A stretch of DNA of 64,000 nt from Levilactobacillus brevis (lineage in GTDB: Bacteria; Bacillota; Bacilli; Lactobacillales; Lactobacillaceae), in contig CP032931.1 in assembly GCA_003666485.1 (NCBI GenBank), positions 558,001 through 622,000 on the forward strand. Direction: 5' to 3'. The position numbers and the translations under genes are program-made. Positions 1 to 63,550 of the stretch are shown here, in pieces (position 1 is the first letter of the stretch; each line of letters starts with the position of its first letter). Under the pieces are notes generated by a model. It did not search any database, was not told the DNA's origin, and saw only the letters and a program-made list of their open reading frames with translations.

Positions 1-1653
1 CAACCAACTGATCCAGTGACTACGCCCGCCGCAGTTGGACCAGTCCCAGCCATTACGGACGACGAGCTACCGACAACGCCGGTTCAAGCATACACGAACG
101 AAACGATTGACCAGTGGATGCCAAATCAGATTTTACGAAAAGCCGTTTGGTTAGCGCTACAAGATACGCACCCAAAGGATGGGAAGACCTGGGCCACCCC
201 AGAAGAAATTACCCAACAAGATATGCAGCGACTTGAGGCTTTGCGTATTACAGGAAACCAGGAATCACATGGCATCAATAGTTATATTGATGGAAAAACT
301 GAATTTTCACTCAAGGGATTAGCCTATGCTGTGAATCTTAAAATAATTTCGTTGGGCGCTGGACTCAATAGTGAGCTTGATACGAGCAAGCCCTTCCAGA
401 TCCATGGCGACGTGGTCGATATTTCACCGCTGGCGTATATGCCTGAACTGGAATACGCGGCCTTGGATAATAACCGAATTACAGATATTTCGCCGTTACG
501 TCATCTGCAGCAGTTGGATCGGTTATATTTAACGTTTAATCATATCGCTGATTTTAGTCCGTTAATGGATCATGAATTTCGCGAACTGACAATTACTAGG
601 CAATTGGTGACGTTGCCTGCGATTAAGGTGGACGCCCAGACGCGCAGAGCCCAAATAGCGTCACCCTACATACAGCCGAATGATCCTTGGGCAGTGGCGG
701 GATTGGGAACGATGGCTACTAATTGGTTACGACAGAATATTTCATTTCAACTAACTGAGACGGGACATAGTTGGAATTTTGTTCGGTACCATACCATGCC
801 GGGGACTGACATCGATATGGGTGTGACTGATGATGATTGGGACGTTCTGTATTTTAAAAATATTCCTGATCAGTTGCCAGGTGATTATGGCGGTCTGCAG
901 GTGAATGAGTTCAGTCGCCAGATTGCCTTACCGGATTATTATTATCTGGTGGGGCAGGCTTATCCGGATACGACTGAGTTTAAGACGACCGACGGGGATA
1001 TCGAATGGTACGTGGTGCAACCCTACACCATTGCCCAAGAGGCGGGTACCATCACGGTCCATTACCAGGATCAAGCAGGACAAACGTTAGCGCCGGATCA
1101 GACACTACCGCAGGGGGATGTCGGGGATTCCTACGACACGAGTCAATTAGCGGTGACCATCAAGGGGTATACGCTAATGACACCACCCGACAATGCGGTG
1201 GGAACCTACACCGCTGCGCCAATCTCAGTGACGTACGTTTACCGAAAAGATCTAGTGAAGCCAGATACAACCCGGCCGCCAGTACCTGAGGTGCCAGGGG
1301 TACGACCGCCAGCTGAAGTTATTCCGCCGGAGATCACCCCGCCAAATCCCGTGACGCCACCAGAGATAACGCCACCGGTTGTGACTGAGCCGACCGAAGT
1401 TGTACTGCCGGAGACGCCACCAACTGTTGTGTTGCCAGTACCTACGTCATTGGGTGATGCCGATGGGATTAGCGAGTCACTCAATAGTGATCAGCAATCG
1501 CCACAGCAACCAGGACTCTCTCGACCGTTGCCATCACAGAGCCTTAGCCTGCCACAGACCAATGACCAGCAAAGCTCATCTTGGTGGGGTGTAGCATTGT
1601 TAGCCATAACGACGGTTGGCGGCTGGCTAGGGAAACGCCGCTGGTCAAAATAG
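1..1653 (+). CDS. LRR/MucBP cell-wall-anchored surface protein (5' end outside window)
   Basis: The frame is open from base 1, so the N-terminus and signal peptide lie outside the window; a GTG at 16 is probably internal. The visible part has leucine-rich repeats of the 'DISPL' type (about nt 340-600), an uncharacterised middle, one MucBP-like domain (about nt 1036-1240), a Pro/Glu/Thr wall-spanning stretch (1255-1480), and a C-terminal sorting signal with LPQTN at 1549-1563, a hydrophobic helix and a KRRWSK tail. The domains point to adhesion to mucus or host/matrix ligands (family knowledge). The sorting motif has Asn where Gly is usual. It is the first of three consecutive wall-anchored proteins. 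Confidence 0.85.
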   Translation, partial: QPTDPVTTPAAVGPVPAITDDELPTTPVQAYTNETIDQWMPNQILRKAVWLALQDTHPKDGKTWATPEEITQQDMQRLEALRITGNQESHGINSYIDGKTEFSLKGLAYAVNLKIISLGAGLNSELDTSKPFQIHGDVVDISPLAYMPELEYAALDNNRITDISPLRHLQQLDRLYLTFNHIADFSPLMDHEFRELTITRQLVTLPAIKVDAQTRRAQIASPYIQPNDPWAVAGLGTMATNWLRQNISFQLTETGHSWNFVRYHTMPGTDIDMGVTDDDWDVLYFKNIPDQLPGDYGGLQVNEFSRQIALPDYYYLVGQAYPDTTEFKTTDGDIEWYVVQPYTIAQEAGTITVHYQDQAGQTLAPDQTLPQGDVGDSYDTSQLAVTIKGYTLMTPPDNAVGTYTAAPISVTYVYRKDLVKPDTTRPPVPEVPGVRPPAEVIPPEITPPNPVTPPEITPPVVTEPTEVVLPETPPTVVLPVPTSLGDADGISESLNSDQQSPQQPGLSRPLPSQSLSLPQTNDQQSSSWWGVALLAITTVGGWLGKRRWSK

Positions 1654-1724
1654 CTGCAGCGATGTACATTTACCAAGAGTCAGTGCAGTGGCTAGCAGGA
1701 CCACAAAAGAGAATAGAGACCATT

Positions 1725-1757
1725 GAGCACGCCAGAAATGTTGGGGTGCTCTTTTTC
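1725..1757 (+). terminator. Rho-independent terminator after the LRR/MucBP gene
   Basis: GAGCAC pairs with GTGCTC (1725-1730 and 1746-1751) and is followed by TTTTT. Confidence 0.7.
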
Positions 1758-2007
1758 TCGACAAATTTTGACTAAGTAAAGTGGAATAACAAACATAGGG
1801 GTAACGAGTTTCGCATAACCACGGTTAAATTCTGGAACGGAACACTACCAATCATACGCTCGGAAATTGGCATGGAGGGGACTGAAAATTAGCCTTAATA
1901 AATTAGGTAAAGCCTTTGATGAAACACGAATTAACAGCATCCAAAAGAAATATTTTTCAAGAAAACAAGTGGTCACACAAAATAGTTTTGTTTACTTATA
2001 ATTAAGC

Positions 2008-2035
2008 TTGATTTTCTTGCCAAAGGGGATACAAT
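2008..2035 (+). promoter_or_regulatory. Predicted sigma-A promoter of the second surface-protein gene
   Basis: TTGATT (2008-2013), 16-bp spacer, TACAAT (2030-2035). A long leader of about 90 nt follows before the ribosome binding site GGGGGAAG. Confidence 0.5.
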
Positions 2036-2133
2036 GTAGGTGTAGAAAAGATTACCCACATTAATAGATGTGTAACGTAAAAATATATGACTAGGGCGAT
2101 TGGGGCACATAAACTTCATAGGGGGAAGTTATC

Positions 2134-4320
2134 ATGCGGAATACATTAAGCACAACCAAAGAGCATTACAAGAGCTACAAGGCAGGCAAACGTTGGCTTT
2201 TTGCTTGCATCACGGTGGTCAGTTTAGGCCTCGGCATGGCGGGAGCGGGAACGACAGCTCAAGCCGATGAGACTTCGGCGGATGATGCCGCAACTACTGC
2301 AGTTCAACCGGCAAGCAGCAGTTCGCAAGGCCAAGAACAAGTATTGCAGGGGGCACAACAAGTAGAAAAAGCCGATACTGATGTATCCGGTGTTAAGGGT
2401 GATGCTGAAGCCGCTAACGGCGCAACCGACGTTAATGATGGTCAGGCAGATAAGGGGTCAGTGAATGATGATACGCCAGCACCGCAAGCAGATTCCGATG
2501 TTAATGCAGGTAAGGTAACGTCTGACAATGAAAAAGTAGGGGATCCACAGAAGCAGCTTGAAGGCGACTCCCAACAATCAGAAGATATCACGAATGATGC
2601 CAACGAAGCGCCTGCAGAGAAGGTTGCCACAACTGATGGCAAGATTGTGAACGACGATACGCTTGCACAAAAGTCGACGACTCCCGACAGTGACACTGGC
2701 AATAAGGTGCAGGGCACGCCAGCCAAGCAGGGGACAGTTAAACTTTCACGGAATAGTTTGGTGAAGTCCGCTACCGCCAGCATTGATGGGGTAGACGCTT
2801 CTGTTTGGATGCCCGACGCGAATCTGCGGGCGGCAGTTGAAAAGGAAATCAACATGTCGGGTAATGTTGCTCCGGTGACGGATGCGACTCTCTCTGCTAA
2901 CCTGAATTCGCTGAATAGCTTGACTCTCAAAACAGCCGATGGTATGCCAACGAGTCTGGAAGGGCTACAGTACTTTACGAACCTAAGTCTTCTTGATGTG
3001 AATGGTAATTTGCCAGCTGACGCTTGGATTGACTTCGGGTTTGCCAAGAACTTGAGCATTGTCTACATCATGAATGACACTGGTTTAACCGGCGTTGATT
3101 TTCCCACTTTCTTCAAGCAAACGTTTGGCAGCAATTCAAAACTGATGCTCTTGAGCCTGACGTATTCTGGGCTGACCGGTAACCTGCCAGATATCACGAA
3201 CTATCCTGACTTGAAGTACCTGAGTATTAATAATAATAATTTGACGGGAACCTTGGCAGACTTAGGGAGTTCGACTAGTGTTACGAGCTTGATGTTAGGC
3301 TACAACCAAATGACTGGTAACTTGGCCGGCATCGACAACCTGCCTAACGTAACGGCGCTATACGCGGCAAACAACAACCTCTCCGGTGACCTGACCGACT
3401 TGAGCAATTACACCGGGACGCTGTATGCGCCAGATAATCATTTAACCTCAGGCGTTCAAAACTTAAAGGGTTACAAACAGGGGCTTTCAACCTTGGACTT
3501 CCAATCCGTTACTGGCAAGACCTACACACTGACGCCGAAGAACCGGGAAATTGATCCAGTTGCTGGCGTTATCACGGGTGTGCAAGACGCTACTGGGGCA
3601 ATTGTCAAAGATGATCCTATGGTGGTCTACAAGCTTGGCACCGCTGGCCAATACTTTACGGTCGTGACCAACAGTGATGGCGGCTTTACCCTGAAGGCCA
3701 AGGGAGACGTGCCGGACGGCGATTACACGCTGACGGTCATCAATAAGAAGACCTATGAATATGGCGTCAACCTGACCTTCACCGTTAAAAATGGCGAGGA
3801 TCCGGCCGACCCAGATACCACCAATCCTGATACGAAAACGCCGGATACCACGACACCGGAGACGCCTAATCCGGATACGACTAACCCTGGTGGCACCACG
3901 ACCACAACACCTGTGACTACGGTGACAGATGGTGGTGACGCGGACGCAATCGTCGCGCCAGCCGATAATGAATCGACGACAGTCACCCCATTGACCGGTG
4001 GTGATGGGGCAACGATCGACACCACGACCCCTGGCACCAAGTCAGCCGGCCAAGCCGACCGGGTGGTTACGGAAACGGCTAAGCAAAATGGGCAACCAGT
4101 CAGTTTGATTGCCAAGAACAGTTCACGGATCGTGCGTGGCACTAAGGCGCCGGTGATGGCTCACCAACCAGCCACTGCCAGTCGGCAACTCGCTGCCAAG
4201 CAGACTGCCGAAACGACTTTACCACAGACCAATGAGCAGAATAGCGCTGGGTTGATTGCCGCCGGTGTGGCAGTCGCCCTGGCAACTTTGGGGATGGGCA
4301 TCAAGACCCGTCACAATTAA
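2134..4320 (+). CDS. KxYKxGKxW signal-peptide LRR adhesin with LPQTN anchor
   Basis: A 728-aa secreted, wall-anchored protein. Residues 1-46 form a KxYKxGKxW-type signal peptide (HYKSYKAGKRW, hydrophobic core, cleavage near AQADE). Residues about 47-210 are acidic, Asp/Ala/Gln-rich and probably disordered. Residues about 220-440 contain leucine-rich repeats of the form LTGNLxxLxxxxxLxxLxxxxN. An Ig-like segment and a Thr/Pro/Asp linker follow. The C-terminus has LPQTN near residue 696, a hydrophobic helix and KTRHN. The start is fixed by GGGGGAAG just upstream of ATG. Likely an adhesin; the ligand cannot be told. LPQTN is noncanonical, as in the preceding gene. Confidence 0.88.
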   Translation: MRNTLSTTKEHYKSYKAGKRWLFACITVVSLGLGMAGAGTTAQADETSADDAATTAVQPASSSSQGQEQVLQGAQQVEKADTDVSGVKGDAEAANGATDVNDGQADKGSVNDDTPAPQADSDVNAGKVTSDNEKVGDPQKQLEGDSQQSEDITNDANEAPAEKVATTDGKIVNDDTLAQKSTTPDSDTGNKVQGTPAKQGTVKLSRNSLVKSATASIDGVDASVWMPDANLRAAVEKEINMSGNVAPVTDATLSANLNSLNSLTLKTADGMPTSLEGLQYFTNLSLLDVNGNLPADAWIDFGFAKNLSIVYIMNDTGLTGVDFPTFFKQTFGSNSKLMLLSLTYSGLTGNLPDITNYPDLKYLSINNNNLTGTLADLGSSTSVTSLMLGYNQMTGNLAGIDNLPNVTALYAANNNLSGDLTDLSNYTGTLYAPDNHLTSGVQNLKGYKQGLSTLDFQSVTGKTYTLTPKNREIDPVAGVITGVQDATGAIVKDDPMVVYKLGTAGQYFTVVTNSDGGFTLKAKGDVPDGDYTLTVINKKTYEYGVNLTFTVKNGEDPADPDTTNPDTKTPDTTTPETPNPDTTNPGGTTTTTPVTTVTDGGDADAIVAPADNESTTVTPLTGGDGATIDTTTPGTKSAGQADRVVTETAKQNGQPVSLIAKNSSRIVRGTKAPVMAHQPATASRQLAAKQTAETTLPQTNEQNSAGLIAAGVAVALATLGMGIKTRHN

Positions 4321-13806: not shown

Positions 13807-13970
13807 GCCTGCGGCTGCCAGGGGTTCCGCCTGCTATGGGGGACGGCTTCAGCCTGAGGAGCGGTCTTCCAGCTCGCTTGGAAGCCTGGCAAAGCCCGCC
13901 AGTCTCCCAAGTCGCCCCACGCTGTAGGCTGAGAAAAAAACCTCAGCCAACACCGTCGACACGGCAGGCG
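13807..13970 (+). repeat. Repeat B, copy 1 (forward)
   Basis: A copy of the B family: terminal segment GGCTGCCAGGGG, the shared 'TTCCGCCTGCTATGGGG' block, and a GGCTGAG/CTCAGCC hairpin near the right end (about 13928-13950). It stands alone, with no A element next to it, and ends 9 bp from the HxlR stop codon. Relative to that minus-strand gene it has the same orientation that B copies show after plus-strand genes elsewhere. Confidence 0.85.
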
Positions 13971-13978
13971 ATAACCTG

Positions 13979-18838: not shown

Positions 18839-18977
18839 GAAAGTCCCACCTTTCTAGGAATAACGGATTGTGTGCTGGGTGTTGCAAGCTTGAAGTTAGC
18901 TATAGTCATTGTGACACTGTGGCTTATGGCGATAAAGGTTGGCCTTTGATACAAGGTGGTCCGTACTGGTGCCTACC

Positions 18978-19145
18978 GTCCGCCAAATATGGGTCGGAAC
19001 GCGGTGGGAAGGACCGGTCGAAGCCAAAGGGCGGTCTTCAACCTCGCTTCGAGCCGAAAATCGCGTCTCGAAGACGCCAGTTTCCAAGTAGGTCGCTTGA
19101 AAACTCCCACGGCTGAGTCCAAATTTAGCTCACTCACGGCTACGT
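18978..19145 (+). repeat. Repeat A, copy 1 (forward)
   Basis: Starts GTCCGCCAAATATGGG and contains the three internal hairpins. The third stem reads GTTT/AAAC and CAAG/CTTG, a divergent but still paired version. The right end (GTCCAAATTTAGCTC) is diverged from the usual terminal repeat. Confidence 0.88.
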
Positions 19146-19352
19146 GGTAGATAACCCACTAAAATTAGTGAAACCATTAGTTCTGCCTGCTAGGGTGAAC
19201 GCCTCTTGACTGAGAAGGTATCGTTTAGCTTGCTAGTTATGCTAGCAAGTTGGTAATTATCAGTAACTGTGTGTTAATGCCAAGCCGGTGGTAAAAGCGG
19301 CTGCACTGAGGTCCAAACCAGTGTCAATTAGCAGTCACCATTGTAGCCGGGA

Positions 19353-19518
19353 GTCCGCCAAATATGGGTTCAGCCGTGGGAGTTACCTTAGCAGCGCTTT
19401 TTGCTGGTTAGGTAACTGGCGTCTTTGAGACGCGAACTTCGGCTCAAAGGCGAGGTGTCGAGACCGCCCCTTGGCTCGACCCGTCCGCCCACAGCGTCCC
19501 TACCCATATTTGGCGGAC
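19353..19518 (-). repeat. Repeat A, copy 2 (reverse)
   Basis: 166 bp with terminal inverted repeats GTCCGCCAAATATGGGT and ACCCATATTTGGCGGAC. Internal hairpins include GTTACC/GGTAAC and GTCGAG/CTCGAC. It lies 3' of the small membrane protein gene and in its orientation. Confidence 0.9.
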
Positions 19519-19688
19519 GGTAGACGACCAGCACGGACCACCCTGCGTCCAAGGACTAATTGTCAGCGGTCTCTCAAAAGCGGCCAAGTAGCTGGTTCAC
19601 ACAGTGTCACTGACACCTACTATCTTACCAGTGTGGTGGGGGATTGCTAGGCCAAATACTAGGTCATTCCCCAATCTTATTTACGACC

Positions 19689-20024: not shown

Positions 20025-20243
20025 GATTAAAATCCCCTTTCCAAATCTTCGAGCGAGTAATCACTCGCCCTCAAGAACAACTTCAGTTTACCACCAAAAT
20101 AGAAAAAGGCAACCCCTTTTTTAAAAAAGTTGGGGGAGTGGGTTTGTGGTTTGAGTGCGGTGCAAATTGGCAAGAATACCATAAGCCGACTTAACATGAG
20201 GAGACTAGTTGTCGCAGCTACATGGTCCGAGCTGCCGCCTACC

Positions 20244-20305
20244 GTTCGCCAAATATGGGCCAGAACGCGGTCTCCTCTCCTCGGATGAGCTCATATTTGG
20301 TGAAC
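20244..20305 (+). repeat. Repeat A, copy 3 (internal deletion)
   Basis: Only the two ends remain: GTTCGCCAAATATGGGCC at the left and GAGCTCATATTTGGTGAAC at the right, separated by about 25 bp. Confidence 0.75.
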
Positions 20306-20493
20306 TCTTGGCTACAGGAGATGAAGCCAGCTGTGTCGAACCGGAAGCCCACTTCAAATCTTAGGACTATTGGCTGCTGACTAACACCGACGAACTGGGG
20401 GATTTATGATTGCGTATTAACCCCAATTTGACGGTAAAACTGGTTGGTGCTGGGGCTAATCTAGTGATCGATTAGCAGCACCATGTAGCCGGA

Positions 20494-20659
20494 GTCTGCC
20501 CAATATGGGTTCAGCCGTGGGAGTTACCTTGCCAGCGGTCTTAGCTGGTTAGGTAACTGGCGTCTTTGAGACGCGAACTTCGGCTCAAAGGCGAGGCGTC
20601 GAGACCGGGCTTTGGCTCGACCCGTCCGCCCACAGCGTTCCGACCCATATTTGGCAGAC
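20494..20659 (-). repeat. Repeat A, copy 4 (reverse)
   Basis: 166 bp, bounded by GTCTGCCCAATATGGGT and ACCCATATTTGGCAGAC. Both ends changed together (CGCC/GGCG to TGCC/GGCA), so the terminal stem is kept. It lies 3' of the aldo/keto reductase, in its orientation. Confidence 0.9.
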
Positions 20660-20710
20660 GGTAGGCGGCCAGTACTTGCTATATAACTGTCGAAAAATTT
20701 GAACACGTAA

Positions 20711-30815: not shown

Positions 30816-30859
30816 AATTAGTCTTTGAACGCAAGATAGTCCGTACTGGCCGCCTTACC

Positions 30860-31026
30860 GTTCGCCAAATTTGGACCGTGACGCTGTGGGAAGGACCGGT
30901 CGAAGCCAAAGGGCGGTCTTCAACCTCGCTTCGAGCCGAAAACCGCGTCTCGAAGACGCCCGTTTCCAAGTAGGTCACTTGAAAACGCCCACGGCTGAGT
31001 CCAAATTTAGCTCACTCACGGCTACG
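30860..31026 (+). repeat. Repeat A, copy 5 (forward)
   Basis: Starts GTTCGCCAAATTTGGACC. It is close to copy 1, with the GTTT/AAAC version of the third hairpin and the same diverged right end. It lies 3' of the P1B ATPase, in its orientation. Confidence 0.87.
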
Positions 31027-31430
31027 TGGTAGATTGACCACTAATGTCGATGAACACGGCCATTCCAGCGATGTCCCTGCTAACTTTAGGGTTAATCACA
31101 GCCGCAGACGACGGACTGATTTAGTGGGCTTACGCCTTGTCAGCTGAGTCTGGTCATCTTACTTGATAACCTGGCAAGAAATTCTAGGTAATTGGAGCGA
31201 CACAGCTGGCTGTACGGTGTTATTGAAAAGTCAGGAACCAAACTTTCTAAAAAGAGAAGCCTAATATTCAGCATCAAATAGTCAATAAGCTGGGAACATT
31301 TGTCCGCGTTATTGACTATTTTTGCGTCTGAGTGGTGCTTATCAGTGGCTTGGTAGTAGGTCTGATTTGACCGTAGTCCAATTGTTGGCAAGGAAAAATA
31401 ATTGGAGATTAATCATCTCTGTAGCCGGGA

Positions 31431-31598
31431 GTCCGTCAAATGTGAGCTCAGCCGTGGGAGTTCCCTTAGCGGCGCGGGTCACGCCGGTTAGGGAACTGGC
31501 GACTTTGAGACGCGGTCTTTCGGCTCAAAGCCGAGGAGACGAGACCGCCCTTTGGCTCGTCCCGCCGCCCACCGCGTTCCGGCTCATATTTGGCGGAC
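31431..31598 (-). repeat. Repeat A, copy 6 (reverse)
   Basis: 168 bp bounded by GTCCGTCAAATGTGAGC and GGCTCATATTTGGCGGAC, with GGGAAC/GTTCCC and GACGAG/CTCGTC hairpins. It lies upstream of the multicopper oxidase gene in antisense. Confidence 0.88.
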
Positions 31599-31713
31599 GG
31601 ACGGCGGCCAGTCAGGTAAATGTCTGGTAATCAATCCCTTTTTCTCCCCTCGTGAATGCGGTATCATAGAGACGGAGACATTTGCTTTAATCAATCGAAG
31701 AGGAGCCTGAAAA

Positions 31714-42110: not shown

Positions 42111-42165
42111 GGCGGTGTTTCGCCGCAATGACCAGCTGGGTCGTTGCGGTGGGGCACCGCTTTTT
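42111..42165 (+). terminator. Terminator after the ABC-F gene
   Basis: A long stem: GCGGTG with CACCGC enclosing CCGCAATGACC with GGTCGTTGCGG, followed by TTTTT. Confidence 0.85.
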
Positions 42166-42215
42166 GTGTTGTGGTAACTGACCGTCTGATAGGGGATGCC
42201 GGTTCACCCGTTGAT

Positions 42216-42279
42216 GGTCGAGACCGTCCCTTGGCCCGACCCGGCGTCCGCAGCGTCACAACGCATATCTAACGAACGG
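42216..42279 (-). repeat. Repeat A, copy 13 (one-ended remnant)
   Basis: Matches one end of repeat A (GGTCGAGACCGTCCCTTGG and CATATCTAACGAACGG) with its other half missing. Between this remnant and 42420 no further feature is visible. Confidence 0.65.
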
Positions 42280-42541
42280 TAAGGCGGCCCCCAAAAGACA
42301 ACTGTCCAAGTCAATTTTAGGACCAAATGTTGAGCAGATTAATGGCCTGATCCCCTGAAACGATAAGGGTTGTCTGACCCTATAAGTGCATGTTAAGTTG
42401 GGGTTGTAGGCGGATGGTTAGGATGAATGATGAGGAGGAACTAATCATTAGCAAAAAAAGTAGAGTAACGTAGAAATACGTAGATGAATATGATGATTAA
42501 TGGTATGCTATCCATAGAAAGGTAATATGGAGGTGGATAGC

Positions 42542-43219
42542 GTGGCAATGATTAAACCAAATGAAATGGCAAAGCGTCTGGGCGTTACCGTTCGAACCTT
42601 GCAAGAGTGGGATCGCAACGGTAAATTTACGGCACATCGCTCACCAACAAATCGGCGTTATTATACAGAAGAACAGTATCGGGATTACCTTGATGAAAAG
42701 CCTACAACCAAGAAAGCTGTGGCTTATGCGCGGGTATCAACGAGTGGACAAAAGGATGATTTGAAAAATCAAATTGCGTTCATTCAAACCTTTGCTAATG
42801 CTAAAGGCATTATTCTTGATGAGTTAATCACTGATATTGGTAGTGGCTTAAATTATAATCGAAAAAATTGGAATAAGCTGTTAGAAGAAGTCTTCAACAA
42901 CGAAGTTGGCACAATCTTTATAACGTACAAAGATCGTTTTATCCGTTTTGGGTATGAGTGGTTTGAACGTTTATGCGCAACACATGGTGCTAAAATTGTG
43001 GTGTTAAACAATAAAGAAACGTCCTCAAACCAAGAAATAGTTGAAGATATGATAAGCATTATTCATGTTTTTTCTTGTCGATTATATGGGCTACGGAAGT
43101 ATAAGCGTAAATTGGAAAATGATTCTGATTTGATGGGTGGTGATGAGCTTGATAAGAACACAAAAGGTAAGACTTTATCCAAATCACCACATGGAAAAGG
43201 TGATGGATCATCTTTGTAA
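42542..43219 (+). CDS. tnpA: IS607-type serine recombinase TnpA
   Basis: A 225-aa protein with an N-terminal MerR-like helix-turn-helix (MAKRLGVTVRTLQEWDRNG) and a serine recombinase catalytic domain (AYARVSTSGQKDDLKNQ, with the nucleophilic Ser). This order, DNA-binding domain first, defines IS607 recombinases. GTG 42542 has GGAGG 8 nt upstream. The gene overlaps tnpB by 77 bp. Confidence 0.9.
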   Translation: MAMIKPNEMAKRLGVTVRTLQEWDRNGKFTAHRSPTNRRYYTEEQYRDYLDEKPTTKKAVAYARVSTSGQKDDLKNQIAFIQTFANAKGIILDELITDIGSGLNYNRKNWNKLLEEVFNNEVGTIFITYKDRFIRFGYEWFERLCATHGAKIVVLNNKETSSNQEIVEDMISIIHVFSCRLYGLRKYKRKLENDSDLMGGDELDKNTKGKTLSKSPHGKGDGSSL

Positions 43220-44297
43220 TTATCGCAGATACTGTTGGAATGAGGGCCTAGCTACCTGGAACGATATGTACGATTTACACACCATTGATGAAGCTAGTCC
43301 AAAACCAAGCATGTATGCTGTCCGTAATGAACTGGTCGCGAATAAAGCTGATTGGCAGTACATGCTCTCGGCCCGAACCTTACAATTGGCAATCGCTGAT
43401 TTAGGAAAGGCCTGGCAGAACTTTTTCGACAAAGCCCAACCAGATTGGGGGCGACCAGCTTTCAAATCAAAGAATGCAGCTCGTCAAGGTTTTAAAACCG
43501 ATCGGGCTAAAGTTGTTGCTGGTAAACTTCGCCTGGACAAACCACGTGGTGTTAAAGATTGGTATGACATTAGGGTCAGTCGTCATGCTGATTTGTCCGG
43601 TACGCTAAAGGTGGTCAGTATTTACCGCGAGAATGGTCAGTATTGGGCCTCACTGCCTTTTGAAGTTGAACTCGAAAACAAGCCACAAACGGGTAAAAAT
43701 TCCGCCGTTGATGTCAACGTTGGTCATTTAAACTATACTGCCGGTGTTATCAATACTTTGCCGAAACGATTAGGCAAATTGTATCAGCGAGTCAAGTATT
43801 ACCAACAGCAGTTAGCTCATAAACGCGTCGTGAATGGAAATAAGGCAACTAAAAGTAATAATTATGCTGTAATGAGAGCCAAATTGCAGCGTGACTATCG
43901 TAAGGTGGCTAATATCCAACATGACATCATGCAAAAGTTTACGACGGAGCTGGTCAATAATTACGACAAAATTATCATCGAAGACTTATCCGTCAAGGAC
44001 ATGCAAATGAGTCACGTTGCTTCCAAAGGCTTACAACGGTCTATGTTTGGCTATTTTCGCCAAGTACTCAGCTACAAATGTGCCTGGTATGGCAAGAAAT
44101 TGTTACTGGCAGATAAGACTTACCCTTCAACCCAGCGCTGTTCCAAATGTGGCTACATTAAGCATGGTACCGACAAAATCACGCTCCAAGGCAATGCACA
44201 GCATCAGACTAAACATAATGAATATATTTGTTACAACTGTAGTGCTATCCTTGATCGTGACGAAAACGCCGTTGCCAATCTATTGGATTTAATTTAA
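43143..44297 (+). CDS. tnpB: TnpB RNA-guided nuclease of the IS607-type element
   Basis: A 384-aa TnpB with a helical N-terminus (IRTQKVRLYP), RuvC segments AVDVNVGHLN, IIEDLSV and DRDENAVANL supplying the acidic triad, and a zinc finger CSKCG...CYNC between the last two. TnpB proteins are nucleases guided by an omega RNA from the element's 3' end and help the element persist. The usual RuvC-I form is GIDLG; here it is AVDVN, with the Asp retained. ATG 43143 gives the standard family N-terminus. Confidence 0.9.
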   Translation: MSLIRTQKVRLYPNHHMEKVMDHLCNYRRYCWNEGLATWNDMYDLHTIDEASPKPSMYAVRNELVANKADWQYMLSARTLQLAIADLGKAWQNFFDKAQPDWGRPAFKSKNAARQGFKTDRAKVVAGKLRLDKPRGVKDWYDIRVSRHADLSGTLKVVSIYRENGQYWASLPFEVELENKPQTGKNSAVDVNVGHLNYTAGVINTLPKRLGKLYQRVKYYQQQLAHKRVVNGNKATKSNNYAVMRAKLQRDYRKVANIQHDIMQKFTTELVNNYDKIIIEDLSVKDMQMSHVASKGLQRSMFGYFRQVLSYKCAWYGKKLLLADKTYPSTQRCSKCGYIKHGTDKITLQGNAQHQTKHNEYICYNCSAILDRDENAVANLLDLI

Positions 44298-44370
44298 AAC
44301 AATTTTAAGGGGCTGGCTATAGTCCTCAAACTGTCACAGTTAGTCAATGTGATTACTCCCTAGTGGAATA
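44200..44370 (+). ncRNA. Candidate omega (guide) RNA region of the IS607-type element
   Basis: By family knowledge the guide RNA overlaps the tnpB 3' end and runs to the right end of the element. Just after the stop codon the sequence has GGGGCTGGC, a TCACA/TGTGA hairpin and CTCCCTAGTGG. The exact RNA end is not determinable here. Confidence 0.4.
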
Positions 44371-44491
44371 TCAGAATACCGGTGTTATAACGGCAGTAAG
44401 CAAAAATAATGAAAGGAAATATGCAACCTTTCTAAATGTAGAAAAACATCGTGCTTTTCTATATTTCTCCATATTTTGCATAGCAGGATGA

Positions 44492-48349: not shown

Positions 48350-48449
48350 AGATTTCAAGACGAAAACCGGCTAGAATCGTTGTCACCATGCGGTTTATGG
48401 CGTTAAAAGTAGTCGTTTACAGCTTTATAGTGGAAACTGGTCGCCTACC

Positions 48450-48616
48450 GTCCGCCAAATATGGGTTGGAACGCGGTGGGCGGACCGGACCGAGCCTGAG
48501 AAGCGGTCTCGGCCTCGCTTTGAGCCGAAGGTCGCGTCTCAAAGACGCCAGTTGCCTAAGCGGCATGAATCGCGCCGCTAAAGCAACTTCCACGGCTGAA
48601 CCCATATTTGGCGGAC
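48450..48616 (+). repeat. Repeat A, copy 8 (forward)
   Basis: 167 bp with perfect 18-bp terminal inverted repeats (GTCCGCCAAATATGGGTT and its complement). Hairpins read CCGAG/CTCGG, CTTTGAG/CTCAAAG and GTTGC/GCAAC. It is followed by a B element. Confidence 0.93.
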
Positions 48617-48726
48617 TCTCAGCTACAAGAGTACTTGCCAGTAACAATTGGTGTAGCCCCAGGTAGTAGCCACTTTACCAACTAACGCTACTGGGTCCAA
48701 CACAGTGTTACTGACAAGCACTAACT

Positions 48727-54622: not shown

Positions 54623-54667
54623 AAAAATGGTGTTTCTGACTGGTTAGACAGTGGGAACACCATTTTT
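54623..54667. terminator. Terminator after the ABC permease
   Basis: AAAAATGGTGTT pairs with AACACCATTTTT. Confidence 0.85.
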
Positions 54668-54702
54668 GTTTGGGTTGAAATTGATCAGGCTGGCCGCCTC
54701 CC

Positions 54703-54869
54703 GTCCGCCAAATATGAGCCGGAACGCGGTGGGCGGCGGGACGAGCCAAGGGGCGGTCTCGTCTCCTCGACTTTGAGCCGAAGACCGCGTCTCAAAATCG
54801 CCAGTTCCCTAACCGGCATAAACCGCGCCGCTAAGGGAACTCCCACGGCTGAGCTCATATTTGGCGGAC
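54703..54869 (+). repeat. Repeat A, copy 9 (forward), best reference copy
   Basis: 167 bp. The outer stem is GTCCGCCAAATATGAGC with GCTCATATTTGGCGGAC. Internal hairpins: GACGAG/CTCGTC (about 54741-54768), TTTGAG/CTCAAA (54772-54796) and GTTCCCT/AGGGAAC with CGGC/GCCG (54804-54840). Confidence 0.94.
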
Positions 54870-55153
54870 TCCCGGCTACGGAGATGTTTCACTGCCAATC
54901 GGGTTAGTTCTTAGCAACAGGTGAGCTGTAGTCAAATCTGTTTCAATTCGGTGTCACTGACAAACGCTAACCTGTCGGAGTCAACCAGTATTCAGAGTTC
55001 CCAGCTGTGTCGGCTCCAGCTAGTTGACGTTTCTTATCAGAATTTCAAATCGGCCATGCTGTAAGCTGAGAATACTTTTAGCTAACGCCAACTTTCATTT
55101 CTAATTGCTTCTGGTCAGCACGGACCATCTCGTCAGCCATTTACCAATCAAGG

Positions 55154-57299: not shown

Positions 57300-57318
57300 A
57301 GCTAGAAACAACCAAATA

Positions 57319-57420
57319 GTCCTTTTAACTTAGTCCCGTGAGGCTAATAAAGGTCCGGTAGTCACTTAAATTTAATGTGTGCTAGCGGCCTGACTCCTTA
57401 CGGGATCCGGCCGCTTTTTT
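57319..57420 (+). promoter_or_regulatory. PyrR-binding attenuator leader
   Basis: The PyrR binding-loop consensus ARUCCNGNGAGGYU is matched exactly by AGTCCCGTGAGGCT (57332-57345), inside a stem of CCTTTT and AAAGG. An intrinsic terminator follows (AGCGGCC at 57384-57390 with GGCCGCT at 57409-57415, then a T run to 57420). TCCCGTGAGG in the PyrR loop can pair with CCTTACGGGA (57396-57405) inside the terminator, giving the antiterminator. This is the three-way switch of PyrR-controlled genes: UMP-bound PyrR favours termination. Confidence 0.88.
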
Positions 57421-57463
57421 CATGGGCCGGCGGTTGCAAAGAAAGCATTGGAGGAGTTTTTTC

Positions 57464-57904
57464 ATGGCACAAATTTACGTAGCAAGTCCATTTTTCAGTC
57501 CCGAACAGGTCGACCGGGTCAAACGCCTGGAAGCCGCTTTAGAAGCCAATCCCACGGTCAAGGATTTCTATTCACCCCGGCTGCATCAAGACGCCGCCAA
57601 TGAACAGTTTACCAAGCCTTGGGCCACGGAGATCTTCCATCGTGACATGGACCAAATCGCGGCCGCAGACGTCATCGTCACGGTCATTGATTTCGAGGCG
57701 AAGAACTTGGATTCGGGGACGGCGTACGAATTGGGCGTTGCCACGATGAGCAACAAGCCAATCTTGGCACTGCAGGAAAAGGACGAGGCGGTCAACCTGA
57801 TGATCACCGAAAGCATGCACTGGTACACCAAGCACGTCGATGACTTCAAGACGTACGACTTCAACACCCTGGACAAGGGCGAGTTTATCGGCGAAATCTT
57901 GTAG
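57464..57904 (+). CDS. Nucleoside 2-deoxyribosyltransferase
   Basis: A 146-aa enzyme of the NDT family, which swaps bases between 2'-deoxynucleosides in salvage. Seen: N-terminal IYVASPFFSPEQ, 'DVIVTVIDF', and the catalytic 'DSGTAYELGVA' with its Glu nucleophile. ATG 57464 has GGAGGAG seven nucleotides upstream; the in-frame ATG at 57422 abuts the leader terminator. The PyrR leader makes expression respond to pyrimidine supply, and an NCS1 base permease gene follows on the other side of a repeat block. Confidence 0.9.
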   Translation: MAQIYVASPFFSPEQVDRVKRLEAALEANPTVKDFYSPRLHQDAANEQFTKPWATEIFHRDMDQIAAADVIVTVIDFEAKNLDSGTAYELGVATMSNKPILALQEKDEAVNLMITESMHWYTKHVDDFKTYDFNTLDKGEFIGEIL

Positions 57905-57923: not shown

Positions 57924-58110
57924 TGCCTCCAGCTACCGGGGGTTCCGCCTGCTATGGGGAACGATTCCAGCCAAAGAGCGGGCTTTCATCTCGCTTCAAA
58001 GCCTCGCAAAATGCGCGAGTCTCTGAAGTCGTCCCACGCAGTAACCTGGCTAAGAACGCCAGCTAACTGCGTCGACACAGCTGGCTGCGCCCCTGGTAGC
58101 TTCCGGCGGG
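57924..58110 (+). repeat. Repeat B, copy 4 (forward)
   Basis: Starts TGCCTCCAGCTACCGGGGG and has the TTCCGCCTGCTATGGGG block. Its hairpin is GCAGTAACCTGGC/GCCAGCTAACTGC, a different sequence from the GGCTGAG/CTCAGCC of other copies but still largely paired. Confidence 0.85.
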
Positions 58111-58194
58111 TTAGACAATTTTCAAGATTAGTGTGTGTCTACTGGAGCCAAGATATTGCTGTTTACTTATTGTGACACGCCAATGTAGCCGTGA

Positions 58195-58360
58195 GTTCGC
58201 TAACTATGAGACTGGAACGCTGTGGGCAGACGGGTCGAGCCGTAGAGCGGTCTCGACACCTCGCTTTGAGCCGAAGGACGCGTCTCAAAGACGCCAGCTC
58301 CCTAACCGGTAAAGAGCACCGCTAAGGGAACTCCCACGGCTGAGCTCATAGTTGACGGAC
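58195..58360 (+). repeat. Repeat A, copy 10 (forward)
   Basis: Starts GTTCGCTAACTATGAG and ends CTCATAGTTGACGGAC; the two ends have changed in step. Hairpins GTCGAG/CTCGAC and CGGT/ACCG. Confidence 0.88.
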
Positions 58361-58452
58361 TTTCGGCTACGGTAGTGCTGGTCAACAATCGTTGCTTCAC
58401 TGCAATTAGCGGTGTAGCAGGGTGATGACCGTTTGAATAAGTACTATCAGAC

Positions 58453-59340: not shown

Positions 59341-60645
59341 ATGAAAACTGTACAGGAAATGGCATTTAGTTTCAATAAAAACATTCTAGCATCGCATACC
59401 GGCGGTCAATTATCTTCTGATGGTGGCCTAACCTTGTGTGTTGAACTGATGGCAAAGTTTCAGTTCACGAACTTAGCTGACAATCTATTGAAGTTCAACG
59501 ACCATCGACAATACTGCCGACATAGTAATTCAAGTATCTTAATGCAGTTGGTTCTGCAGATCATTGCCGGTTATAATACAGATTCTGCTGCAACCTCATT
59601 GGTTGCAGAACCATTGTTTAAACTTTTATTGGACAAACCAGCCTTAGCTTCACAAGCGACGATATCCCGTTTCTGGCAACGTATCGATTCCGCAGGTGTG
59701 GACGCCTTCCAGACTTTAAATCAAGCTCTTATTGATCAAGCTCGACTGCTAACTAATCAGACGACCACCATTATTGATATTGATTCAACCCATTCTGACA
59801 CTTATGGCAATCAAGAAGCTACTGACTATAACGCCCATTATGGCTCGGAGGGGTATCATCCATTACTAGCTATCGATAATGATGGTAATCTCATGAAAGC
59901 CATCCTACGGCCTGGTAATGCCTATACCAGCACAGATATAAAAGCCTTTTTAGAACCGTTATTAAAACATTATCAAGACCAATTGCCAGAAACTGATATT
60001 CTGGTTCGCGGTGATAGCGGGTTCGCCACACCAGCTGTTTATGATACCTGCGAGGCCGATGATGTCTTTTACATTATTCGCCTCAAACGTAATAAGCGAC
60101 TACACAACTTGGCAGAAGAGTTTGTACAGATAAGCGACACAACTGAGTGGCATGAAACCGAAACTCACTATTACTCAGCAACTTATCAGGCCACTTCGTG
60201 GCCTAAACCGCGTCAAGTATACGTTAAGTCAACTCGTGTAGCTGGCGAATTGATCTTTTCACATGAATTTATTGTGACTAATCTGACAAATTTAACCGTA
60301 GAAGCAGCATTTGAACTGTATCATAAGCGTGGTCAGATGGAGAATTATATCAAGGAAGCCAAAGAGGGCTTCTTCTTTGATAAGACTGATAGTTCAACGT
60401 TTACCGCCAACGCTGCCCGTATGATGGTTAGTGTATTAGCGTACAATATTATCAATTTTATGAAGCAAATAGCCCTACCTAAAACAGAGACCGGATTGCG
60501 TGTTAGTACATTACGAATCCGTTTATTCAAAGTCGCTGCCCGCGTTGTGTTTACCGGTCGACGAATCCAGTTACGACTGAGTTCTCATCACGTTTATCAT
60601 CGACTCTTTTATCAGGTATTACAGCGTATTCAGGCTATTAAATAG
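59341..60645 (+). CDS. IS1380 family DDE transposase
   Basis: A 434-aa transposase. The N-terminus (SSDGGLTLCVELMAKF) and catalytic residues fit IS1380: Asp in DIDSTHSDTYG, Asp in LVRGDSGFATP, and Glu in YHKRGQMENYIKEAK. The frame is intact, so it is probably active. The ATG follows AGAGGA. Confidence 0.92.
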   Translation: MKTVQEMAFSFNKNILASHTGGQLSSDGGLTLCVELMAKFQFTNLADNLLKFNDHRQYCRHSNSSILMQLVLQIIAGYNTDSAATSLVAEPLFKLLLDKPALASQATISRFWQRIDSAGVDAFQTLNQALIDQARLLTNQTTTIIDIDSTHSDTYGNQEATDYNAHYGSEGYHPLLAIDNDGNLMKAILRPGNAYTSTDIKAFLEPLLKHYQDQLPETDILVRGDSGFATPAVYDTCEADDVFYIIRLKRNKRLHNLAEEFVQISDTTEWHETETHYYSATYQATSWPKPRQVYVKSTRVAGELIFSHEFIVTNLTNLTVEAAFELYHKRGQMENYIKEAKEGFFFDKTDSSTFTANAARMMVSVLAYNIINFMKQIALPKTETGLRVSTLRIRLFKVAARVVFTGRRIQLRLSSHHVYHRLFYQVLQRIQAIK

Positions 60646-63377: not shown

Positions 63378-63386
63378 GATTAGCAG

Positions 63387-63550
63387 CTGCTGCCAAATGT
63401 GGTCTGGAATGCTGTAGACGGATGAGACAAGCGGAACAGATGGTAACGCCTTGCTTTGAGCCGAAGACCGCGTCTCGAAGACGCCAGCTTCCAAGCAGGT
63501 CACTTGAAAACTCCCACGGCTGAGTCTAAATTCAGCTCACTCTCGGCTAC
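63387..63550 (+). repeat. Repeat A, copy 11 (forward, diverged)
   Basis: The left end is degraded (CTGCCAAATGTGGTCTGG); the CTTTGAG/CTCGAAG and CAAG/CTTG hairpin regions and right end (GTCTAAATTCAGCTC) resemble copies 1 and 5. It lies 3' of the anti-sigma gene. Confidence 0.75.

Follow-up and report, generated by a model that had tools for sequence, protein, structure and literature searches.

The window analysed here, a stretch of 64,000 nucleotides of the Levilactobacillus brevis genome (contig CP032931.1, positions 558,001 to 622,000), carries ten near full-length copies of a folded intergenic repeat. At 16-4320, there are two genes for surface-protein-like products showing MucBP/LRR and KxYKxGKxW signal features. 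A two-gene element at 42527-44388 encodes a TnpB-type RNA-guided endonuclease (43137-44297) after an ORF that by eye resembles a serine recombinase, and contains a match to the RF03014 'Transposase-1' RNA (44331-44388) that perhaps represents its guide RNA end. A PyrR binding site (RF00515, at gathering score) is found at 57317-57420, upstream of a nucleoside 2-deoxyribosyltransferase gene (57422-57904), and an IS1380-family transposase is encoded at 59341-60645. No tRNAs were detected in the window. RF03014 and RF00515, both away from the repeat, were the only two matches obtained in a scan of the window with Rfam 15, and no family reached its gathering threshold at the element, in keeping with the original prediction, in which it was not recognised as a named family.

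All ten listed copies were recovered by blastn with the copy at 54703 and its short flanks (window 54640-54930) as a query, the one at 63387 in two pieces, and all ten were matched by the covariance model R1 (E 1.6e-52 to 2.5e-18). Seven of them (all but 38501, 58195 and 63387) are part of the alignment underlying R1, so that their R1 matches follow by construction. R1 additionally detected a remnant at 20235-20314 and weaker matches, e.g. at 42120-42286. The claim of ten copies with one common fold was thus confirmed for a family larger than noted, and the proposed unit length of 167 bp was revised, since the conserved unit spans about 185 bp (54694-54878 for the 54703 copy) and usually forms one half of a pair. 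The arms and parts identified in the window are as follows (placements marked as such were made by eye).

54694-54878, plus strand (inferred functional strand, its complement): the copy under study, one arm of type A; R1 206.5 bits, E 1.6e-52; member L001 of the R1 alignment
54703-54719, plus: outer stem, left arm, pairing with 54853-54869; 17/17 complementary; 12/16 helix pairs vary on both sides across sequences
54853-54869, plus: outer stem, right arm, pairing with 54703-54719
54726-54733, plus: middle helix, left side, pairing with 54842-54849; almost invariant in alignment A1; placed by eye
54842-54849, plus: middle helix, right side; placed by eye
54740-54763, plus: hairpin H1 (GAGCC..GGTCTC); missing from two-hairpin forms; placed by eye
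54768-54800, plus: hairpin H2 (GAGCCG..CGTCTC); the part still matching in the most distant loci, L056 and L057; placed by eye
54804-54840, plus: hairpin H3 (stem with CTAA/CTAA); placed by eye
54945-55035, minus: what remains of the inverted module B arm that partners the 54703 copy; 74.7% identical to the module B consensus by blastn, E 7.8e-11; outside the count of 193 arms
48441-48625, plus: arm A of a complete inverted pair; R1 189.8 bits
48699-48911, minus: module B partner of the 48441 copy; 82.3% to the module B consensus, E 6.8e-56
18969-19142, plus: short-H3 arm, inverted pair with 19344-19527; R1 152.4 bits
19344-19527, minus: arm A, partner of 18969-19142; R1 197.2 bits
20235-20314, plus: remnant arm facing 20486-20668; R1 56.1 bits
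20486-20668, minus: arm A; R1 182.2 bits
30851-31024, plus: short-H3 arm, pair with 31422-31607; R1 154.9 bits
31422-31607, minus: arm A, partner of 30851-31024; R1 194.6 bits
38492-38675, plus: arm A; R1 194.1 bits
38781-38901, minus: partial partner arm, module B; module B blastn, arm-pair count
58186-58369, plus: arm A with inverted right end at its left; R1 168.1 bits
58454-58638, minus: inverted partner arm, module B; 79.5%, E 7.3e-43
57924-58112, plus: extra module B arm; 82.1%, E 6.4e-50
63380-63549, plus: degenerate arm, short-H3 subtype; R1 75.7 bits
63864-63993, minus: partial inverted partner arm, module B; module B blastn, arm-pair count
13807-13974, plus: module B arm, no nearby partner; 81%, E 4.6e-39

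The copies at 18978, 30860 and 63387 represent a subtype with a short third hairpin; the 5' half of the 63387 copy is degenerate, and the left side of the 58195 copy bears an inverted right end. Two of the pairing states reported for the third hairpin exist but had been assigned to the wrong copies, as judged by eye: the G-C state (GTTGC/GCAAC) is found in copy 7 (48450) rather than copy 8, and GTTCCC/GGGAAC occurs in the 54703, 31431 and 38501 copies, whereas the left arm of copy 9 (58195) reads GCTCCC. In the 3.1-Mb genome of the strain, at least 150 R1 matches were obtained (150 of 150 candidates scored, out of 1267), a number that is a lower bound because of the candidates beyond those scored; the 167-bp query yielded at least 43 matches (40 of 268 candidates scored). 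Among copies of this genome, nearest-neighbour identity reached.983 at most (median.925), and none of these copies is therefore brand new. On the two halves of C1, the copies showed no striking replication-strand bias (first half 29 plus and 42 minus, second half 43 plus and 36 minus; origin not located).

Arms and gene contexts were counted in fetched stretches, a sample of all copies comprising 193 arms and 105 copies, respectively. About half of the 105 copies have some 300 bp in common on their right side, and this shared segment contains module B, a diverged arm in opposite orientation. Among the 193 arms, 83 neighbour pairs within 450 bp were identified, of which 67 pointed inward on the strand first folded, 11 and 5 were in the two tandem arrangements and none pointed outward. 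Inward pairs had a median gap of 103 bp, accounted for 134 of the 193 arms and were also present in other species (e.g. at L032, L034, L039, L207, L208 and L210). The 167-bp repeat is therefore usually one arm of an inverted pair and, since the arms point inward on the strand first folded, both would read away from the spacer on the inferred functional strand. At L005, L007 and window positions 58186-58200, arm ends appeared by eye to be swapped or duplicated in inverted form, resembling the products that would arise by recombination inside a palindrome.

The 54703 copy is closed by 17-bp terminal arms with 100% complementarity. Across the family, a GCC/GGC closure at the terminus of each arm is followed by a long outer stem and a middle helix, and the interior contains two or three hairpins, their number varying between copies. 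An additional hairpin upstream of the GTAGCC of the complement was suspected by eye, although its register varies, and is not claimed here. Covariation was evaluated in several alignments. A1 contains 42 arms aligned with MAFFT in a structure-blind manner, namely 15 of 30 loci from the same genome, five window copies and 22 loci from other genomes, excluding L049-L051 and L055-L057 (partial or with no recognised end), whereas A5 consists of 46 hand-picked sequences and includes more distant species. A3, the own-genome set, was built by alignment to the model and is biased in its favour; like A3, alignment A4 was fitted to the structure. A2 contains antisense hits and was not relied on. In A1, 31 of 49 pairs varied on both sides, with 95.8% of cells pairing, compared with at most 15 pairs and 48.5% of cells when the partners were slid by 1-3 columns, which bears out the proposed compensatory base-pair changes; in A5, both sides changed in 39 of 47 pairs.

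For a test against the phylogenetic background, substitutions per branch of a FastTree tree were redistributed among columns in R-scape style, applying a cut-off of E<0.05. At this threshold, covariation was detected for 19/47 pairs across species (A5), 12/49 pairs in A1 and 15/49 pairs in the own-genome set; the corresponding numbers of non-structure pairs were 23 of 18,098 (19.3 expected), 10 of 15,882 (16.2 expected) and 2 of 16,241 (16.6 expected), respectively. The background that the original prediction had set as its yardstick was thus exceeded both across species and within the genome, and selection on structure is upheld at both levels. Consistently, private changes per copy relative to the consensus of its six nearest relatives were less frequent at paired (.0356) than at unpaired sites (.0516) in 128 copies longer than 165 nt. 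The 417 private changes at paired sites comprised 220 Watson-Crick double changes (each side counted), 160 single changes, 14 other double changes and 23 with a variable partner. Gene conversion may account for part of this pattern. Among pair types carried by at most two copies, 40 double-change cells were found versus 107 single-change cells.

Mismatches were distributed asymmetrically between the strands. On the strand first folded, A-C outnumbered G-T mismatches by 155 to 55 in copies of the same genome (6,306 cells) and by 54 to 26 in A1; the excess was slight in A4 (78 versus 67) and reversed in A2 (109 versus 126). Read on the complement, A-C mismatches become G-U pairs. The complement was also predicted to fold more stably in 124 of 129 own-genome copies (by 8.9 kcal/mol on average), in 22/22 rows of A1 from other species and in 43 of the first 50 rows of A4. 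Because of this asymmetry and the difference in stability, the functional strand is probably the complement of the one first folded. A mutation bias, visible at unpaired sites (G>A.127, C>T.081, A>G.110, T>C.067), is a partial rival explanation: it accounts for part of the bias at G-C pairs, yet it opposes that at A-T pairs, where A-C exceeded G-T by 60 to 16. The suggestion that the element acts as RNA or folded single-stranded DNA had therefore named the right pair of options, while the evidence favours the complement over the strand on which the fold had been drawn. A promoter-like site at 48403-48431 (two sites found, 0.8 expected) aims into the 48441 arm on the strand first folded, opposite to the inferred strand, and a scan of two pairs detected no promoter-like site in their spacers.

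R1 matches were obtained in 33 of 35 Levilactobacillus genomes, including that of the present strain (at most 76 candidates scored per genome), with G021 and G031 as the two genomes without a match. Seven of the nine genus genomes in which blastn was blank were matched by R1. A hairpin-pattern search returned 50 stretches, 47 of them in named Levilactobacillus species and three in Companilactobacillus huachuanensis. With R2, a model of the complement strand, matches were found in 31 of 295 genomes of the order, belonging to 11 of 74 genera (8 candidates scored per genome). The 54703-type element had no match in the plasmid collection, and a literature search, with subscription journals mostly outside its reach, returned no paper on this repeat in lactobacilli.

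Occupied and empty sites were compared between species. The whole unit was present in one species and absent at the matching site of another for L133/L083, L012/L076 and L078/L149; at other matching sites, L071 retains an eroded stub, and L085 and L105 have unrelated sequence. In six filled/empty comparisons of old sites, whose flanks shared roughly 82-92% identity, no target duplication could be made out by eye. L143 (2239-2719), L053, L054 and L071 represent a matching intergenic site that carries the element in the present genome and two distant ones and an eroded stub in L. angrenensis, and may constitute an old shared insertion.

The occurrence of the element does not follow that of Y1 transposases or reverse transcriptases. 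The Y1 domain (PF01797) had no match in 12 of the 33 element-bearing genomes (one of which, G005, is 72% complete) and was matched in both element-free genomes, and RVT_1 was found in 10 of 35 genus genomes. Reverse transcriptases were accordingly rejected as an autonomous parent. The five Y1 genes of the present genome resemble IS200/IS605 copies, a stretch of about 1.9 kb being common to four of them, and were likewise rejected since their ends differ by eye. At one of the five Y1 loci (L183), an element arm (117-304) lies about 1.2 kb from the gene. The same locus shows a 63-bp palindromic sequence twice, at 355-417 and 2052-2114. No ORF-sized gap was found between A and B arms, the largest of 51 inward A-B gaps measuring 488 bp, under a limit of 1500 bp beyond which longer parents would be missed. 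No active parent IS, as called for by the alternative named in the original prediction, was encountered among the Y1 transposases, the reverse transcriptases and the gaps between neighbouring arms.

In a genus denoted f4/g4, R2 gave exactly one match in each of 13 genomes (8 candidates scored per genome). This genus appears to be Streptococcus, judging from the gene neighbours inspected by eye at 12 loci and from a nearby BOX element. At eight of these 12 loci (L232, L235-L239, L242 and L243, at about 1481-1654), the relative resides in the purD-purE junction, which suggests an old insertion kept in place. The Streptococcus-like repeats keep the order of the junction parts on the same strand, as seen by eye. 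R3, a model of the streptococcal-set sequences and one locus of another family, matched 48 of 58 genomes of the f4/g4 genus with up to 41 of 46 scored copies, so that the streptococcal relatives also are dispersed repeats. Applied to 31 sources, R3 lent modest reciprocal support, matching L224 (E 1e-4), the Companilactobacillus locus L063 (E.0012) and, more weakly, three others; there was no match in the window or in 14 other Levilactobacillus sources, nor in the present genome (10 of 703 candidates scored). The streptococcal repeats are probably distant relatives, a link supported by R2, the weak R3 matches at L224 and L063 and the common architecture. The streptococcal relative had no match among plasmids and phages, the relative at L229 none among plasmids, and the streptococcal H2 pattern no exact match in viral contigs.

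Several of these repeats resemble the Rfam family RF02616 (SSRC8_2). Its central part matched them on the inferred strand at five loci, four in the f4/g4 genus (L245, E 3.6e-12; L235, 2.9e-11; L233, 1.5e-10; L240, 8.3e-6) and one in another family, f5 (L231, 3.4e-7). Every match, however, remained below the gathering threshold (best score 53.6 bits, threshold 72 bits), and ten loci outside the streptococcal set, including six from Levilactobacillus, had no match. For SSRC8 of S. pyogenes MGAS315, a transcript was detected on Northern blots and circular RACE served to map its ends (PMC3675131). The link to a streptococcal sRNA detected by Northern blotting suggests that some annotated sRNAs may be domesticated or active copies of such a repeat.

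The gene on the outer side was nearest in 85 of 105 copies and faced the element with its 3' end in 70, only nine copies were at divergent sites, and orientation at tandem sites showed no strong preference (37 versus 26); these counts are based on ORFs assigned by a greedy rule rather than a gene finder, with 40 of the 105 copies overlapping an ORF of at least 80 aa. Such an arrangement fits an RNA that serves the host, i.e. a module of 3' UTRs or inter-operon regions (terminator, stabiliser or decoy) that benefits neighbouring genes, and compensation within single copies also agrees with this idea. The remnant arm that partners the 54703 copy contains a terminator-like site at 55007-55030 (plus strand), albeit at chance level (one found, 0.9 expected), but the arms of the 48441 pair lack such a site, orientation at tandem sites is not strongly biased, the occupied positions differ between related species and two genus members are without a match, which leaves a host function improbable.

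We consider it moderately probable that the element is a non-autonomous mobile repeat of BOX/MITE-like type whose folded single strand is under selection. Each arm forms a multi-hairpin junction, with a spacer of about 100 bp usually separating two arms in inverted orientation, and an enzyme or factor supplied in trans would recognise the folded strand, enabling the element to copy itself; the fold would be selected because this factor must recognise it for copying. Insertions are tolerated chiefly in intergenic positions and next to the 3' ends of genes, any influence on adjacent transcripts being a likely by-product. The folded strand is somewhat more likely to be RNA than single-stranded DNA, since a transcript has been detected for the probable streptococcal relative. 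An ordinary MITE mobilised by a DDE transposase, with compensatory changes produced by template switching during palindrome correction or by gene conversion between copies, appears unlikely to us. The outer stem does resemble terminal inverted repeats, the swapped ends seen by eye at L005, L007 and window 58195 fit recombination inside palindromes, and inter-copy conversion could yield paired double changes in short hairpins. However, conserved mismatches, bulges and internal loops persist that would be lost under correction, mismatches would not be expected to differ between the strands, double changes exist even among rare pair types, and the arms are neither AT-rich nor separated by an ORF-sized gap within the 1500-bp limit. 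Still less credit, and indeed very little, is given to a REPIN-like element, in which a Y1 (RAYT) transposase would recognise the inverted arms in single-stranded DNA form. Arms do usually occur in inverted pairs, most arms of this species begin with GTAG on the complement and an arm is found near one of the five Y1 loci, but GTAG is not conserved across the genus, many element-bearing genomes are without a Y1 match, the Y1 genes of the strain look like IS200/IS605 copies and the inferred functional strands of paired arms are located on opposite DNA strands.

The preferred reading of a mobile repeat with a selected fold could be extended to a bolder one, which we regard as speculative and rather unlikely, namely that these repeats are bacterial SINE-like elements. 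In that case, a transcribed RNA domain with an elaborate fold, found across Lactobacillales in Levilactobacillus, Companilactobacillus and Streptococcus (SSRC8), would have expanded repeatedly, reaching dozens or hundreds of genomic copies through a mechanism that recognises or copies RNA, with the mirror-image paired arms as the mobile unit.

Among known systems, EFAR repeats of Enterococcus faecalis are folded modular repeats of about 170 bp and thus similar in size and also found in Lactobacillales, a likeness by description rather than by sequence. REPINs and RAYT-associated REP sequences consist of paired inverted palindromic units in intergenic DNA of bacteria. The element has this organisation in common with them; its arms, in contrast, are about 185 nt long and contain several hairpins, no RAYT was recognised and there is no conserved GTAG tag. 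It is a member neither of the REPINs nor of RF02616. The terminal inverted repeats typical of MITEs are present as the outer stem of each arm and as the inverted arms of each pair, whereas the GC content of the ten window arms (0.53-0.66, compared with 0.51 for the whole window) differs from that of an AT-rich element.

BOX-type features are evident in the dispersal of at least 150 copies between genes and in a modular interior with a variable number of hairpins. On the complementary strand, the arm ends resemble BOX ends, represented by AGCCGCAGG and by ACGGCAAGGCG, the latter of which lies inside primer BOXA1R. The 5' motif was found at 8/9 positions or better in 8 of 46 sequences versus 5 of 2000 shuffles, and the 3' motif at 10/11 or better in 6 of 46 versus 2 of 2000, with no single sequence of the 46 reaching both thresholds; the BOX element in L240 gave no convincing R2 match (best E 0.1). 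BOX of S. pneumoniae and the BOX-type repeats of S. suis likewise are modular and strongly folded and occur in more than 100 dispersed copies per genome and have no proven mobilising enzyme (Croucher et al. 2011, PMC3049150); ISSpn2 has been proposed for BOX. Target duplications are reported for BOX, unlike the situation at the sites compared here, and neither hairpin content nor inverted pairing is alike. Small bacterial repeats have mostly been seen as DNA palindromes, whereas the present element covaries like a structured RNA, even within one genome, and its mismatch signature hints at the strand that is read. It is an old question how BOX-like repeats are moved and for what reason they fold, and the present family makes it testable in food-grade lactobacilli.
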